DNA from: Oscillospiraceae bacterium | GTDB lineage: Bacteria; Bacillota; Clostridia; Oscillospirales; Oscillospiraceae | DNA length: 64,000 nt | Reading direction: 5' to 3' | NCBI GenBank assembly: GCA_022846095.1 | Contig: AP025583.1 | Location: forward strand, 806,001-870,000 | Notes under the pieces: generated by a model | What the model was told of the DNA's origin: nothing | Database searches by the model: none | What the model saw: the letters and a program-made list of their open reading frames with translations, nothing else | Made by a program: the position numbers and the translations under genes | Part shown: piece after piece, positions 15,990 to 39,399 of the stretch | Layout: each line of letters starts with the position of its first letter | Position numbering within the stretch: position 1 is the first letter of the stretch

Positions 15990-16532
15990 ATGAAAAAGTT
16001 TGTCTGCACGGTCTGCGGTTACGTCCATGAGGGTGAAAAGGCGCCCGACTTCTGCCCGGTCTGCAAGGCTCCTGCCAGCAAGTTCAAGGAGCAGGGCGGC
16101 GACAAGACCTGGGCCGCCGAGCACGTGGTCGGCGTGGCCAAGGGCGCGCCCCAGGAGATCATCGACGGCCTGCGCATGAACTTCGAGGGCGAGTGCTCCG
16201 AGGTGGGCATGTACCTGGCCATGGCCCGTGTGGCCCACCGCGAGGGCTACCCCGAGATCGGCATGTACTGGGAGAAGGCCGCCTATGAGGAGGCCGAGCA
16301 CGCCTCCAAGTTCGCCGAGCTGCTGGGCGAGGTGGTCACCGACTCCACCAAGAAGAACCTGCAGATGCGCGTGGACGCCGAGAACGGCGCCACCGCCGGC
16401 AAGGTCGAGCTGGCCAAGCTGGCCAAGGAGCTGGGCCTGGACGCCATCCACGACACCGTGCACGAGATGGCCCGCGACGAGGCCCGCCACGGCAAGGCCT
16501 TCGAGGGTCTGCTGGGCCGCTACTTCGGCTAA
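15990..16532 (+). CDS. Rubrerythrin (reverse type, N-terminal rubredoxin)
   Basis: The 180-residue protein starts with a rubredoxin-like Cys4 site (Cys6, Cys9, Cys22, Cys25) and continues with a four-helix di-iron domain holding repeated E..E..H motifs ([31 protein letters not shown]). The rubredoxin-first order is that of reverse rubrerythrins, which act as NADH peroxidases and reduce hydrogen peroxide in anaerobes. TAGGAGG precedes the ATG. The last 45 bp of the gene and its terminator are duplicated twice downstream. Confidence 0.92.
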
Positions 16533-16547
16533 AACATCATGGATAGG

Positions 16548-16577
16548 GAGGACGGGGCGTATGCCCCGTCCTCTTTT
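16548..16577 (+). terminator. Rubrerythrin terminator (first of three copies)
   Basis: GAGGACGGGGC/GCCCCGTCCTC forms a stem with a T5 tail. The same hairpin recurs at 16772-16801 and 16994-17021. Confidence 0.85.
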
Positions 16578-16711
16578 TGTGTGGCGGGCCTCGTCACCGA
16601 GCGTTTTGGCCCCGCGGGGCCAAAACCTCGATGCCGGGCGGATTGATTCCGCCCGAGCAGATAAAATGAAAAGAGGGGTTCCCACGGGACGGGTCCCGTG
16701 GGAGAGCCCGG
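16577..16711 (-). mobile_element. Core-ATTTTATCTGC hairpin element, rubrerythrin copy 1
   Basis: The element is about 135 bp. Read on the minus strand it has hairpin 1 (TCCCACGGGAC...GTCCCGTGGGA), ACCCC, the core ATTTTATCTGC (16657-16667), hairpin 2 (GGGCGGAATCAATCCGCCC) and hairpin 3 (GTTTTGGCCCC/GGGGCCAAAAC). It has no coding capacity. See the related copies at groES and at the chromate transporter. Confidence 0.7.
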
Positions 16712-16800
16712 CACGGCAAGGCCTTCGAGGGTCTGCTGGGCCGCTACTTCGGCTAAAACATCATGGATAGGGAGGACGGGGCGTATGCCCCGTCCTCTTT

Positions 16801-16935
16801 TTGTGTGGCGGGCCTCGTCACCGAGCGTTTTGGCCCCGCGGGGCCAAAACCTCGATGCCGGGCGGATTGATTCCGCCCGCGCAGATAAAATGAAAAGAGG
16901 GGTTCCCACGGGACGGGTCCCGTGGGAGAGCCCGG
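16801..16935 (-). mobile_element. Core-ATTTTATCTGC hairpin element, rubrerythrin copy 2
   Basis: This is a nearly exact copy of the element 224 bp upstream, with one visible difference (CCCGCGCAG for CCCGAGCAG) beside the core at 16881-16891. Confidence 0.7.
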
Positions 16936-17045
16936 CACGGCAAGCCTTCGAGGGTCTGCTGGGCCGCTACTTCGGCTAAGATCACAGATAGGGAGGACGG
17001 GGCGTATGCCCCGTCCTCTTTATAGCGGAGTTTTCAGACTACAAA

Positions 17046-18758: not shown

Positions 18759-18818
18759 TTACTCCACAACGGCCAGAATGTCGCTCTGGCGGACGATGGT
18801 CTACTCCTCGCCGTCCAC
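18759..18818 (-). pseudogene. Duplicated 3' end of groES (60-bp stub)
   Basis: Sixty bases matching the last 20 codons of groES (18964-19023) recur 205 bp away. The stub has changed: the Tyr codon of EEYTIV is TAG, and the last codons differ (VVE encoded by other triplets). It has no start and is not a gene. Confidence 0.85.
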
Positions 18819-18963
18819 CCCGCGAAACAACGTTTCGCGGGGACCCCTTGATTTTATCTGCGGCCGGGAGAAATAAATTCCCCCGGCCTGCGGCGCTTTA
18901 CGCGCCGCCCCATCTGCGATGGAGCCCCAAGGTGTCCGGCTTACCCCGCTGTGGAAACAGGGC
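18819..18963 (+). mobile_element. Core-ATTTTATCTGC hairpin element within the groES-groEL operon
   Basis: The 145-bp element has hairpin 1 (CCCCGCGAAAC...GTTTCGCGGGG), ACCCC, the core at 18851-18861, hairpin 2 (GGCCGGGAGAAATAAATTCCCCCGGCC-like) and hairpin 3 (GGCGCTTTACGCGCC), then a small CCATCTGCGATGG stem. It lies between direct repeats of the groES end. Confidence 0.7.
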
Positions 18964-19327
<364 letters not shown>

Positions 19328-35916: not shown

Positions 35917-37842
35917 ATGCGGGACGGTTTTATCAAGGTGGCCGCCGGCACGCCGAAAATCCAGGTGGCCGGCTGCCGGCACAACGCCGAGCAGGTGTTT
36001 ACCCTCATGCGGGAGGCCGACCGCCAGGGCGTGCGCGTGCTGGCGCTGCCCGAGCTGTGCCTGACCGGGTACACCTGCGGCGATCTCTTCCTCCAGCCCA
36101 CGCTGCTGCGGGGGGCGGAGGAGGCCCTGGCCACCGTGCTGGAGGCCACCAGCGCCCTGGATCTGCTGGCGGCGGTGGGCCTGCCGGTGGAGTACCGGGG
36201 CAAGCTCTACAACTGCGCGGCGGTCATCTGCCGCGGCGAGATCCTGGGCGTGGTGCCCAAGACCCACCTGCCCAACTATGGCGAGTTCTACGAAAGACGC
36301 TGGTTCGAGCCCGCGCCCCGGCAGGGGGGCCTGCTGGAGCTGTGCGGGCAGGAGTGCTTTTTCGGCGCGGATCTGCTCTTCCGCTGCGAGAGCATGCCCG
36401 GCCTCACCCTGGGCGTGGAGATCTGCGAGGACCTGTGGGCGCCCTGCCCGCCCTCGGTGCGGCTGGCCCAATCGGGCGCCACGGTGATCCTGAACCTCTC
36501 CGCCAGCGACGAGACGGTGGGCAAGGCCCACTACCGCCGCCAGCTGGTGGCGGGGCAGTCGGCCCGGCTGCTGTGCGGCTACGTGTACGCCGACGCGGGG
36601 GAGGGGGAGTCCTCCACCGACCTGGTGTTCGCCGGGCACGACATGGTGGCGGAGAACGGCGCGCTGCTGGCCGAGGACCGGCGCTTCGCCGCCGGGCTGA
36701 CGGTGAGCGAAATCGACGTGGAGCGCCTGTGCGCCGAGCGGCGGCGCAGCTCCACCTTCCCGCCCGCCCCCGGGCCGGAGGAGGCACCCATGGCGGTGAG
36801 CTTCACCCTGGAGAGCTCCACCACCACCCTGACCCGGCACATCTCGCCCACCCCCTTCGTCCCGGAGGACGGTGCGGGCCGGGCCGAGCGCTGCGACGAG
36901 ATCCTGAAAATCGCCGCCATGGGCCTCAAGACCCGGCTGGAGCACACCGGGGCGCGCACGGCGGTGGTGGGCCTGTCCGGCGGGCTGGACTCCACCCTGG
37001 CGGTGCTCGTCGCCACGGTGGCCATGCGCCTGCTGGACCGCCCGGCCAGCGACATCATCGCCGTGACCATGCCGTGCTTCGGCACCACCGACCGCACCCG
37101 GGACAACGCCGTGGAGCTGGCCGGGCGGCTGGGCACCACCCTGCGGCGCATCGACATCTCCAAGACGGTGCGCAGCCACTTCGCCGACATCGGCCAGTCC
37201 CCGGACAACCACGACGTGACCTACGAAAACGCCCAGGCCCGGGAGCGCACCCAGGTGCTCATGGACATCGCCAACCAGACCGGCGGCCTGGTGGTGGGCA
37301 CCGGGGACCTCAGCGAGCTGGCCCTGGGCTGGGCCACCTACAACGGCGACCACATGAGCATGTACGGCGTGAATTCCTCCATCCCCAAGACCCTGGTGCG
37401 CCACCTGGTGTCCTTCGTGGCGGGGGACAAGGCGGAGGAGGACCGCGCCCTGTCCGACGTGCTGGAGGACATTCTGGACACCCCCGTCTCCCCGGAGCTG
37501 CTCCCCGCCGTGGGGGGTCGCATCGCCCAAAAGACCGAGGATCTGGTGGGGCCCTACGAGCTGCACGACTTCTTCCTCTACTATGCCGTGCGCTGGGGCT
37601 TCCCGCCCCGGAAGGTGCTGCGGCTGGCGGAGCACGCCTTCGCCCGCACCTACGACCGCGCCGCCATCCTCAAGTGGGAGCGCACCTTCTACCGCCGCTT
37701 CTTCGCCCAGCAGTTCAAGCGCTCCTGCCTGCCCGACGGGCCCAAGGTGGGCTCCGTGACCCTCTCGCCCAGAGGGGACTGGCGCATGCCCTCCGACGCG
37801 GTGGCCCAGCTCTGGCTGGAGGAGCTGGAGGGCCTGGACTGA
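35917..37842 (+). CDS. nadE: Glutamine-dependent NAD+ synthetase
   Basis: The 641-residue protein has an N-terminal nitrilase-type glutaminase (about 10-290, 'LPELCLTGYTCGDLF', 'KTHLPNYGEFYERRWF', 'GVEICEDLW' with the Cys) and a C-terminal synthetase with the pyrophosphate loop SGGLDST at 354-360. It amidates deamido-NAD using glutamine. AGGAGGC is 8 bases before the ATG. The stop is 3 bases before the first (stub) ATG of the chromate transporter region. Confidence 0.96.
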   Translation: MRDGFIKVAAGTPKIQVAGCRHNAEQVFTLMREADRQGVRVLALPELCLTGYTCGDLFLQPTLLRGAEEALATVLEATSALDLLAAVGLPVEYRGKLYNCAAVICRGEILGVVPKTHLPNYGEFYERRWFEPAPRQGGLLELCGQECFFGADLLFRCESMPGLTLGVEICEDLWAPCPPSVRLAQSGATVILNLSASDETVGKAHYRRQLVAGQSARLLCGYVYADAGEGESSTDLVFAGHDMVAENGALLAEDRRFAAGLTVSEIDVERLCAERRRSSTFPPAPGPEEAPMAVSFTLESSTTTLTRHISPTPFVPEDGAGRAERCDEILKIAAMGLKTRLEHTGARTAVVGLSGGLDSTLAVLVATVAMRLLDRPASDIIAVTMPCFGTTDRTRDNAVELAGRLGTTLRRIDISKTVRSHFADIGQSPDNHDVTYENAQARERTQVLMDIANQTGGLVVGTGDLSELALGWATYNGDHMSMYGVNSSIPKTLVRHLVSFVAGDKAEEDRALSDVLEDILDTPVSPELLPAVGGRIAQKTEDLVGPYELHDFFLYYAVRWGFPPRKVLRLAEHAFARTYDRAAILKWERTFYRRFFAQQFKRSCLPDGPKVGSVTLSPRGDWRMPSDAVAQLWLEELEGLD

Positions 37843-37845
37843 TTT

Positions 37846-38052
37846 ATGAATCTCTATCTTGACCTGTTTCTGACCTTCGCCCGCGTGGGCGCGTGCATCC
37901 CCGGCACGCCGGCGGCGCGCCGGGGGCCCCAAGTGATTTTATCTGCGGGGCGTGGAAGTGAATTCCACGCCCCTGCGCGGCAGATGCCGCGCCCCGCGCA
38001 GCGGGGCCCCGGTGCCCGCGCGGGTGGGAACGGCGGTGGCGGAAGGCTGTGA
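37846..38052 (+). pseudogene. Stub ORF 1: duplicated 5' end of the chromate transporter gene fused to element sequence
   Basis: This 68-codon frame starts with the same 17 residues as the intact transporter gene, then runs through a 152-bp hairpin element as low-complexity Pro/Arg/Gly sequence and stops at a TGA that overlaps the GTG of the next copy (GTGA). The ATG here, right after nadE, is probably the ancestral start of the transporter gene. A functional peptide is unlikely; translational relay is possible. Confidence 0.75.
37898..38049 (+). mobile_element. Core-ATTTTATCTGC hairpin element, transporter copy 1
   Basis: This element has hairpin 1 (CCCCGGC...GCCGGGG), CCCCAAGTG, the core at 37936-37946, hairpin 2 (GGGGCGTGGAA/TTCCACGCCCC) and hairpin 3 (GCGCGGCA/TGCCGCGC), followed by a GC-rich tail. 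Confidence 0.7.
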
Positions 38053-38255
38053 ATCTCTATCTTGACCTGTTTCTGACCTTCGCCCGCGTGGGCGCATGCA
38101 TCCCCGGCACGCCGGCGGCGCGCCGGGGGCCCCAAGTGATTTTATCTGCGGGGCGTGGAAGTGAATTCCACGCCCCTGCGCGGCAGATGCCGCGCCCCGC
38201 GCAGCGGGGCCCCGGTGCCCGCGCGGGTGGGAATGGCGGTGGCGAAAGGCTGTGA
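38049..38255 (+). pseudogene. Stub ORF 2: second duplicated 5' end
   Basis: This frame repeats stub ORF 1 with a GTG start overlapping the previous stop, and it ends in a TGA that overlaps the GTG of the intact transporter gene. The chain stub 1-stub 2-intact gene is linked by two GTGA junctions. Confidence 0.75.
38101..38252 (+). mobile_element. Core-ATTTTATCTGC hairpin element, transporter copy 2
   Basis: The core is at 38139-38149, 203 bp after that of copy 1, with the same three hairpins. Confidence 0.7.
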
Positions 38256-38830
38256 ATCTCTATCTTGACCTGTTTCTGACCTTCGCCCGCGTGGGCGCGT
38301 GCACCTTCGGCGGGGGGTACGCCATGCTGCCCATCCTCCAGCGGGAGCTGGTGGAGAAGCGGGGGTGGTGCGGCGAGGAGGAGCTGGCCGACTACTTCGC
38401 CATCGGCCAGTGCACCCCCGGCATCATCGCCGTGAATACCGCCACCTTTGTGGGCCATAAGCAGAAGGGGAACCTGGGGGGCGTGACGGCCACCCTGGGG
38501 CTGGTGGCCCCGTCGGTGCTCATTATTCTGCTGATCGCCGCCTTCCTGGAGAACTTCGCCGACCTGCCCGTGGTGGGCCACGCCTTCGCCGGGGTGCGCG
38601 CCTGCGTGTGCGCCCTCATTCTGGCCAGCGTGCTCAAGCTGCGGAAGAATACCGTCATCGACCTGCCCACCACCATCATTTTTATCGCCGTGTTGGCCCT
38701 CTCGCTGGTCAAAAGCTACGTGCCCGGCCTGCCCGGCGCGCTGTCCCAAATTTTCTCCCCGGTGGGGCTGGTGCTGCTGGCGGGGGCGGCGGGCTTCGGC
38801 ATTCGCGCCGCCCGGGGGTGGAAAAAATGA
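38252..38830 (+). CDS. Chromate-transporter-family protein, first half
   Basis: The 192-residue protein has the ChrA half-transporter pattern ('FARVGACTFGGGYAMLPILQRELVEKRGW', 'IGQCTPGIIAVNTATFVGHKQKG') with about six membrane segments. Short ChrA pairs (CHR3 type) form heterodimers; in gut anaerobes the real substrate is unproven. The start is a GTG overlapping the stop of stub ORF 2, with GGTGG 9 bases upstream. Duplication of its 5' end has probably replaced an ATG start next to nadE. Confidence 0.85.
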   Translation: MNLYLDLFLTFARVGACTFGGGYAMLPILQRELVEKRGWCGEEELADYFAIGQCTPGIIAVNTATFVGHKQKGNLGGVTATLGLVAPSVLIILLIAAFLENFADLPVVGHAFAGVRACVCALILASVLKLRKNTVIDLPTTIIFIAVLALSLVKSYVPGLPGALSQIFSPVGLVLLAGAAGFGIRAARGWKK

Positions 38831-39399
38831 TTCTGCTCCAGCTGTTTTTCGAGTTCTTTAAGGTGGGGCTCTTCTCCGTGGGCGGGGGGCTGGCCACCAT
38901 CCCCTTCCTCACCGACATGGGCGTGCGCACGGGGTGGTTTTCCGGCGCAGATCTGGCCAACATGATCGCCGTGTCCGAGTCCACCCCCGGCGCCATGGGA
39001 GTGAATATGGCCACCTACGTGGGCTTCACCGCGGGCGGCCCCCTGGGGGCGGTTATCGCCACATTGGGGCTGGTGGCGCCCTCCATCCTGGTCATTCTGC
39101 TTATCGCCCGGGTGCTGCAAAAGTTCCGCCAGTCCCGGGCCGTGGACGCGGTGTTCTACGGCCTGCGCCCCGCCTCCACCGCCCTGATCGCGGCGGCGGG
39201 AGTGTCGGTGGCGGTCATCGCCCTGCTCAACGTGGACGGCTGGCGCGCGGTGGAGGCCCTCTCCGCCCTTTTTCGGTGGAAGGCCATTTTGCTGGCCGTG
39301 GCCGTGTTCGTGTGTATGCAGCTCAAACCCCTGAAAAAGCTGCACCCCGTGGTCTTTATCGCCGCCTCGGCGGTCATCGGGGTCGTGTTCCAGTTCTGA
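38827..39399 (+). CDS. Chromate-transporter-family protein, second half
   Basis: The 190-residue protein is the paralogous partner ('FKVGLFSVGGGLATIPFLTDMG', 'ESTPGAMGVNMATYVGF'), overlapping the first by ATGA. The two are presumed to form one transporter in the membrane. A terminator follows. Confidence 0.85.
   Translation: MILLQLFFEFFKVGLFSVGGGLATIPFLTDMGVRTGWFSGADLANMIAVSESTPGAMGVNMATYVGFTAGGPLGAVIATLGLVAPSILVILLIARVLQKFRQSRAVDAVFYGLRPASTALIAAAGVSVAVIALLNVDGWRAVEALSALFRWKAILLAVAVFVCMQLKPLKKLHPVVFIAASAVIGVVFQF

Follow-up and report, generated by a model that had tools for sequence, protein, structure and literature searches.

The stub open reading frames (ORFs) that precede the chromate transporter gene in the window, that is in the whole 64-kb stretch of Oscillospiraceae DNA analysed here, are displaced starts of the transporter gene itself, separated by copies of a short hairpin-rich element (E) whose gene-end family is apparently undescribed; the portions of the open-access literature that were searched hold no description of it. 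Typically E is inserted some 50-100 bp inward from a gene's start or stop codon; the stretch of gene between the insertion point and that codon (T) flanks it on both sides, and the gene-proximal T copy completes the gene.

At the transporter, where every feature lies on the plus strand, the interval 37846-38830 is an array of the form T(ET)2, with 51 bp of gene start as T, a 152-bp E and a unit of 203 bp; two unit copies, 99% identical, are followed by a partial third. The upstream neighbour is a nadE-like gene for NAD synthase (35917..37842; PF02540, PF00795), and 3 bp lie between its stop and the old transporter start, an ATG at 37846. T1 (37847..37897), the native 5' end of the transporter gene, was recognised as displaced from comparison of the repeats and from the adjacency of nadE and transporter in relatives. 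It is followed by E1 (37898..38049, from the family model and alignment), made of hairpin A (37898-37926), the core TGATTTTATCTGC (37934-37946), hairpin B (37947-37973), hairpin C (37975-37992), a tail hairpin (37993-38006), the segment D (38011-38021) and a segment x (38022-38048). After T2 (38050..38100, from repeat comparison) comes the second element copy, E2 (38101..38252), with hairpin A at 38101-38129, core at 38137-38149, B at 38150-38176, C at 38178-38195 and D at 38214-38224, and then T3 (38253..38303), the copy of the gene start in functional use, with the junction sequence J at 38295..38305. The intact gene for a chromate transporter subunit (38252..38830; PF02417) starts with GTG and overlaps at an ATGA the gene for a second subunit (38827..39399; PF02417). 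The initial annotation had described this array exactly. Both stubs are open and 68 aa long, the first (37846..38052) with an ATG start and a TGA overlapping the next GTG, the second (38049..38255) with a GTG start and a TGA overlapping the real GTG; each consists of 17 transporter codons, an open frame through E and the TGA/GTG overlap, and two GTGA junctions lead from the old ATG to the intact gene.

In the family, hairpin A is followed by a conserved core (CCCC..TGATTTTATCTGC), after which come hairpins B and C, in many copies one more hairpin, and finally a tail that contains D. Looking for the antisense core GCAGATAAAAT, we found it at three loci of the window, namely the transporter, a rubrerythrin-like gene and groES. 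At the 3' end of the rubrerythrin-like gene (15990-16532, plus strand) a T(ET)2 array occupies 16482..17021 on the minus strand, and at the 3' end of the groES-like gene (18964-19311, minus strand) a T-E-T arrangement spans about 18759..19024 on the plus strand, its ends being taken from alignment. Names of genes other than nadE, chromate transporter, rubrerythrin and groES are, here and below, our own reading of translations. A covariance model of the core and hairpins B and C was used for the family search. In the 4.31-Mb genome from which the window comes (the own genome) it gave 51 matches at an E-value <= 0.01, three of them opposite-strand echoes of palindromic copies, so about 48 element copies, 22 of the 48 lying, as judged by spacing, in 9 tandem arrays. 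The element is present in 10 of 40 relatives (own genome included), in 112 of 400 genomes and 42 of 106 genera of the bacterial family, where at most 11 candidates were scored per genome, and in 27 of 295 genomes of the order, with at most 15 candidates per genome. A pattern scan of named genomes returned 68 stretches, mostly from Flavonifractor, Pseudoflavonifractor, Intestinimonas and Galloscillospira by their titles, along with some Clostridiales and Eubacteriales assemblies that are unplaced; neither viral contigs nor phages nor plasmids, each searched with one pattern or one query, yielded an element. Rfam had nothing over threshold in the 64-kb window, and at a relaxed threshold on eight loci it gave 6 matches, one of them above the cut-off (uup, L043:652-699) and none over E.

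Other repeats were seen alongside. The relative G030 carries (L322-L341) a related subfamily without T, within a larger mosaic of GC-rich repeats; at L333 it forms a head-to-tail array with units of about 118 bp, and other copies in that genome stand behind tRNA terminators. In the own genome, a repeat G(T/C)AGGGGCGATTCACGAATCGCCCG, distinct from E, recurs in the intergenic flanks of L017, L018 and L019. A two-unit array at own position 3460966 (L004/L007) has a T ending in a strong terminator-like hairpin; a script found no open coding frame there, and it is perhaps the end of an RNA gene.

The duplication of gene ends accompanies most copies: T is present beside 59 of 69 external element copies and beside 157 of 191 in a pooled set that favours high-scoring copies. 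The last units with T number 138; by assignment 120 of them belong to gene 3' ends, one to neither end and 17 to 5' ends, although reading showed four of these 17 to be wrongly placed. Among 132 assigned units, the 119 at 3' ends carry the element in antisense to the gene and the 13 at 5' ends carry it in sense. T measures 28-210 bp, with quartiles of 53, 71 and 96 bp, and the median identity of its two copies is 0.948. In the 119 units at gene 3' ends the gene-distal end of T falls no more than 5 nt from the stop codon in 70 cases, beyond it in 36 and inside the gene in 13, and at this end the two copies become less alike, identity falling from 0.79 to 0.45. Turnover of arrays would be expected to leave a gradient of divergence along T; it was looked for and is absent, identity staying at 0.90-0.95 over the first 100 nt. 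T scores below 50 were obtained in G030 (L064, L071, L076, L082), G010 (L069, L074, L080) and G018 (L070, L075), so that three of four copies in G010 and two of four in G018 have no T of score 50. G030 has the most matches among the 40 relatives (69), and the copies inspected there, some of them after a tRNA terminator, have no T by eye. T is therefore not universal. As a separate observation, one DUF554-like gene end is occupied in two genera (L003/L006, own position 341428, and L065, in G014); in the own genome the rebuilt gene ends in residues wholly unlike those of the displaced copy, and the C-terminus of the protein may have changed with the insertion.

A second regularity concerns the tail of E. 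At the first ten loci it was seen by eye to be the inverted complement of the sequence that surrounds the right end of T and continues into the gene. The match between D and the junction sequence reached a score of at least 20 in 99 of 133 units, against 2.6% of mismatched control pairings, and in 87 of the 99 (87/133 units) it spans the junction, with coverage from about -13 to +4; 34 of the 133 units have no match of score >=20, and the 12 others of the 99 do not span the junction. D was also compared with its own J and with the J of the same site in another genome: in 235 ordered pairs, limited to elements with an own score >=18, a limit that favours the own J, the own J matched better in 154, worse in 28 and equally in 53. 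The two copies of J1, the T side of the junction, differ at 126 positions, and of these D matches the gene copy at 105, the displaced copy at 10 and neither at 11, in alignments chosen on the gene copy, which favours that copy. D thus tends to follow changes in the local gene. At the transporter of the window 10 of 11 positions are complementary at the junction by eye; the best alignment by script lies elsewhere, at -26 to -15, with a score of 17 that 8% of local controls reach. The homologous D at the same site in G101, a genome of another genus, reads 10 of 10 at the junction.

Elements occupy 71 sites, 27 of them in more than one locus, and the nearest neighbour of an element is an element of the same site in 55 of 89 cases, while 2.2 would be expected; the transporter elements of the own genome and of G101 are reciprocal best matches. 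Judging from these sequence comparisons, element lineages are specific to sites and common to several species and genera. Sites are occupied in a patchy manner. Applied to 30 transporter loci, the model detects E in the own genome, in G101 and in G019, where it is next door, in the 3' end of nadE (L083/L197), adjoining the transporter start that is occupied in the other two. A partial element tail is left at the locus of G071, and in several relatives the site is empty, with nadE running directly into the transporter. The tree of the transporter gene is poorly resolved: own and G101 are not sisters in it, and the own copy pairs with that of G065, in which E is not found by the model; this fork (87/90) is not firm.

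With somewhat better than even confidence, we hold that the family of E consists of DNA elements that are selfish and are, or at least once were, mobile. The unit that moves would be E plus T, about 160-240 bp, and D would act as an internal DNA guide or splint holding the junction J1|J2, in such a way that insertion rebuilds the gene. Arrays and the alike T copies could then derive from repeated insertion at the intact gene-side site, or from recombination between T copies. At the transporter the stub would be a displaced native start plus E, and since this gene is probably coupled to nadE, only 3 bp away, the variants kept would be those whose stub stays open across E and ends at the new start, or in which a new ribosome site is present. 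Insertion by a splint would account for the position of D across the junction and for the rebuilding of the gene, and templated replication would explain the upkeep of the hairpins and of D; both processes may act. Against this reading stand the units that have no D match across the junction, the D of the transporter copy in the window, whose best alignment by script lies elsewhere, the copies without T and the U.G pairs at the outermost position of the B region; moreover, the site-specific lineages could reflect plain vertical inheritance, and templated mutation could by itself maintain the hairpins and D. Should D guide insertion, it would represent a protein-free, DNA-encoded targeting principle. 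We know of no class of repeat that lies inside conserved gene ends, leaves the genes unbroken and often carries the complement of its own insertion point. In any case, partially duplicated genes, stub ORFs and unusual gene ends in these gut bacteria can be accounted for by the family, and it offers a natural test bed for two processes, the coupling of translation where a start codon has moved and the templated mutation that acts on inverted repeats.

Searches with the models RVT_1, Y1, IS110 and TnpB identified no mobilising enzyme. RVT_1 (PF00078, a single model of reverse transcriptases) has no match in four of six E-bearing genomes (G010, G018, G019, G030), so that target-primed reverse transcription, our first model, was dropped. 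The Y1 transposase (PF01797) has no match in five of 11 (G010, G018, G030, G089, G103), in a search of drafts of 82-99% completeness; the IS110 DEDD transposase (PF01548) has none in eight of 15 and TnpB (PF07282) none in 11 of 15, the own genome included in both cases. The last three were rejected as mobilisers, their presence not following that of the element. A stronger form of the favoured reading supposes a protein-free mobile DNA element with its own DNA guide, in which the gene-end copy serves as rescue and the guide is rewritten by templated synthesis, like a natural homing element with built-in rescue; we consider this possible but rather doubtful.

The pairing of the hairpins bears on whether any mobility is needed. 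In the alignment fitted to the model, 80 distinct rows show 23 of 24 pairs changed on both sides, with 232 such cells against 58 in shuffles; one-sided changes occupy 23 cells, 14 of them U.G at the outermost pair (14 U.G of 78, B region). In stem B, 863 of 878 pairs are Watson-Crick, one is G.T and four are A.C, in 110 stems that passed a filter in which G.T is not counted as paired. RNA structures usually tolerate G.U, and stem B is nearly free of it, which suggests that pairing is maintained at the level of DNA or through templated mutation. An RNA-level function was also tried as a candidate and rejected: neither stem B nor D:J shows an excess of wobble pairs on either strand, again with a filter that ignores G.T as a pair. 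Replication by itself is a rival explanation. Clusters of hairpins might provoke template switching or slipped pairing, which would yield the T copies, the arrays and D without dedicated mobility, and the same process would homogenise the inverted repeats, leaving D and the hairpins complementary without selection. Such a process agrees with pairing kept with few wobble pairs and with the tendency of D to follow the local gene, and two papers (PMC8604942; PMC7202029) report that template switching homogenises the arms of inverted repeats. It leaves unexplained, however, the centring of D on the insertion point, the frequent ending of T at a stop or start codon and the presence of about 48 dispersed copies of one conserved core, and as a complete account we judge it unlikely, though a serious competitor.

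The compensatory changes in the hairpins are strong, and this, together with the persistence of elements at particular sites across species and genera, would suit a domesticated element in which E and the D:J pairing form a selected cis-acting DNA or RNA structure acting in message stability, termination or coupling. But the element is antisense at 3' ends (119) and sense at 5' ends (13), and its B stems have almost no G.U on either strand, which makes a single RNA function unlikely; presence at the transporter site is moreover patchy. Our estimate for domestication is low.

The initial annotation had proposed that the element keeps translation connected after displacing the native start, holding that a 152-bp GC-rich insert without a stop in the stub frame, twice and with the start/stop overlap, would not be expected if it were random. 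The surprise claimed for the open frame was not confirmed: through 110 family copies at gene 3' ends 165 of 330 frames in the sense of E are open. Since half of the frames are open by composition, and since the two transporter units are a single duplicated sequence, an open stub frame alone means little. The GTGA is itself native, as several relatives without E start the transporter gene with GTGAA (L191, L193, L195, L200, L203, L206), and in L203 the stop of nadE, read from the sequence, overlaps the transporter GTG. Other insertions at gene starts were then considered, in a sample of 15 units at 11 gene starts gathered by hand. The stub stops inside the element at six of the 11 (rpiB-, uvrB-, copA-, tyrA- and sdaAB-like genes and the gene of L134), and as a property of the element the proposal thus does not pass the check that the initial annotation itself had set. 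At the other five (chrA, PHP-like, GNAT-like, racD-like and, at -18, trxB-like) the stub ends between -18 and +5 of the real start, three of them with an NTGA overlap as at the transporter, and three sites show read-through in two genomes: chrA (own, G101), PHP-like (own, G174) and racD-like (G321, G353). With the null rate for a stub ending near the real start taken from the gene-3'-end copies (313/1635 = 0.19), the probability of five or more in 11 is 0.04. Read-through goes with whether T begins at the start codon or not (5/5 versus 0/6), in a split made post hoc. In three orthologous 5' pairs the unit lengths differ by 0, 6 and 3 nt; at 3' sites the difference is a multiple of 3 in 56 of 142 pairs, giving a chance of 0.06 for three out of three.

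The transporter elements of the own genome and G101 agree at 117 of 152 bases, and the 35 differences include no indel and leave no stop in the stub frame. The values of pS/pN between them are 0.36/0.19 in the stub frame, 0.35/0.20 in the frame with stops and 0.14/0.29 in the third; the stub peptide is under no clear constraint, and selection on it at the protein level was rejected, its pS and pN being equalled by a frame that contains stops. In G101 a strong ribosome site (-10.6 kcal/mol) precedes the real transporter start, while in the own genome the site at the real start is weak (-6.1 kcal/mol) and that of the old ATG has -9.8; on these predicted energies the transporter may also be initiated from an independent ribosome site. 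The proposal of connected translation is partly supported, by the five read-through sites and not as a property of the element: continuity is plausible and probably selected at coupled genes, and we conclude that it is a consequence of the landing site and not of element design. That the element was built for this purpose finds some encouragement in the stub ends at five of 11 sites, three of them in two genomes, and in the frame-preserving unit lengths of all three pairs; as a general rule, however, it is already contradicted by the stops inside the element, by the half of frames open by composition and by the position of 119 of the 132 assigned units, which lie at gene 3' ends and so displace no start, and we regard it as very unlikely. 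An ordinary non-autonomous transposon with an unusually long target duplication (a MITE, a REPIN, an IS200/605 or IS110 derivative, or a retroelement) would be short, dispersed, palindromic and patchy like E, but this reading is already weakened by terminal inverted repeats at control level, by a T that varies from 28 to 210 bp and by the lack of RVT_1, Y1, IS110 and TnpB matches each in some E-bearing genomes, and seems highly improbable.

Comparison with known systems places E beside several of them. It lacks the terminal inverted repeats of MITEs, end-to-end complementarity being found in 1% of 131 units and in 1% of controls, and T, at 28-210 bp, is not a short target duplication of fixed length. 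A reverse transcriptase, as for retroelements (group II intron, DGR, retron), a DEDD transposase, as for IS110 bridge-RNA systems, and a nuclease, as for IS605/TnpB, are each without a match in part of the E-bearing genomes tested, and no Rfam RNA matches E in the searches described. REP, BIME and REPIN sequences with their RAYT transposases are short dispersed palindromes near gene ends, in clusters and tandem runs. E resembles them in being short, conserved, dispersed, palindromic, near gene ends, clustered and tandem; it differs in being flanked by a duplicated gene end, often with a junction-complementary tail, and the RAYT (Y1) enzyme is unmatched in five of 11 carrier genomes. Rickettsia palindromic elements insert in frame inside genes. 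E too is palindromic, lies within coding regions and can stay open. The Rickettsia elements are named in a review of prokaryotic MITEs (PMC10969869). Unlike them, E does not become part of the host protein, and the duplicated end rebuilds the gene. Genomic islands enter gene 3' ends by site-specific recombination, with direct repeats, a gene rebuilt on one side and tandem accretion. At E sites, too, the gene end is duplicated and restored, and the loci have direct repeats with the gene end, one-sided rebuilding and tandem accretion; the E unit, in contrast, has neither integrase nor cargo, is about 160-240 bp long and has a repeat that differs at each site. Finally, the DNA guides of IS608-type elements, the bridge RNA of IS110 and the exon-binding sequences of group II introns are internal segments complementary to the target junction. 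D is also an internal segment complementary to a junction, but it is complementary to one strand across that junction, it differs from site to site, and the enzymes of those systems are missing from some carriers of E.
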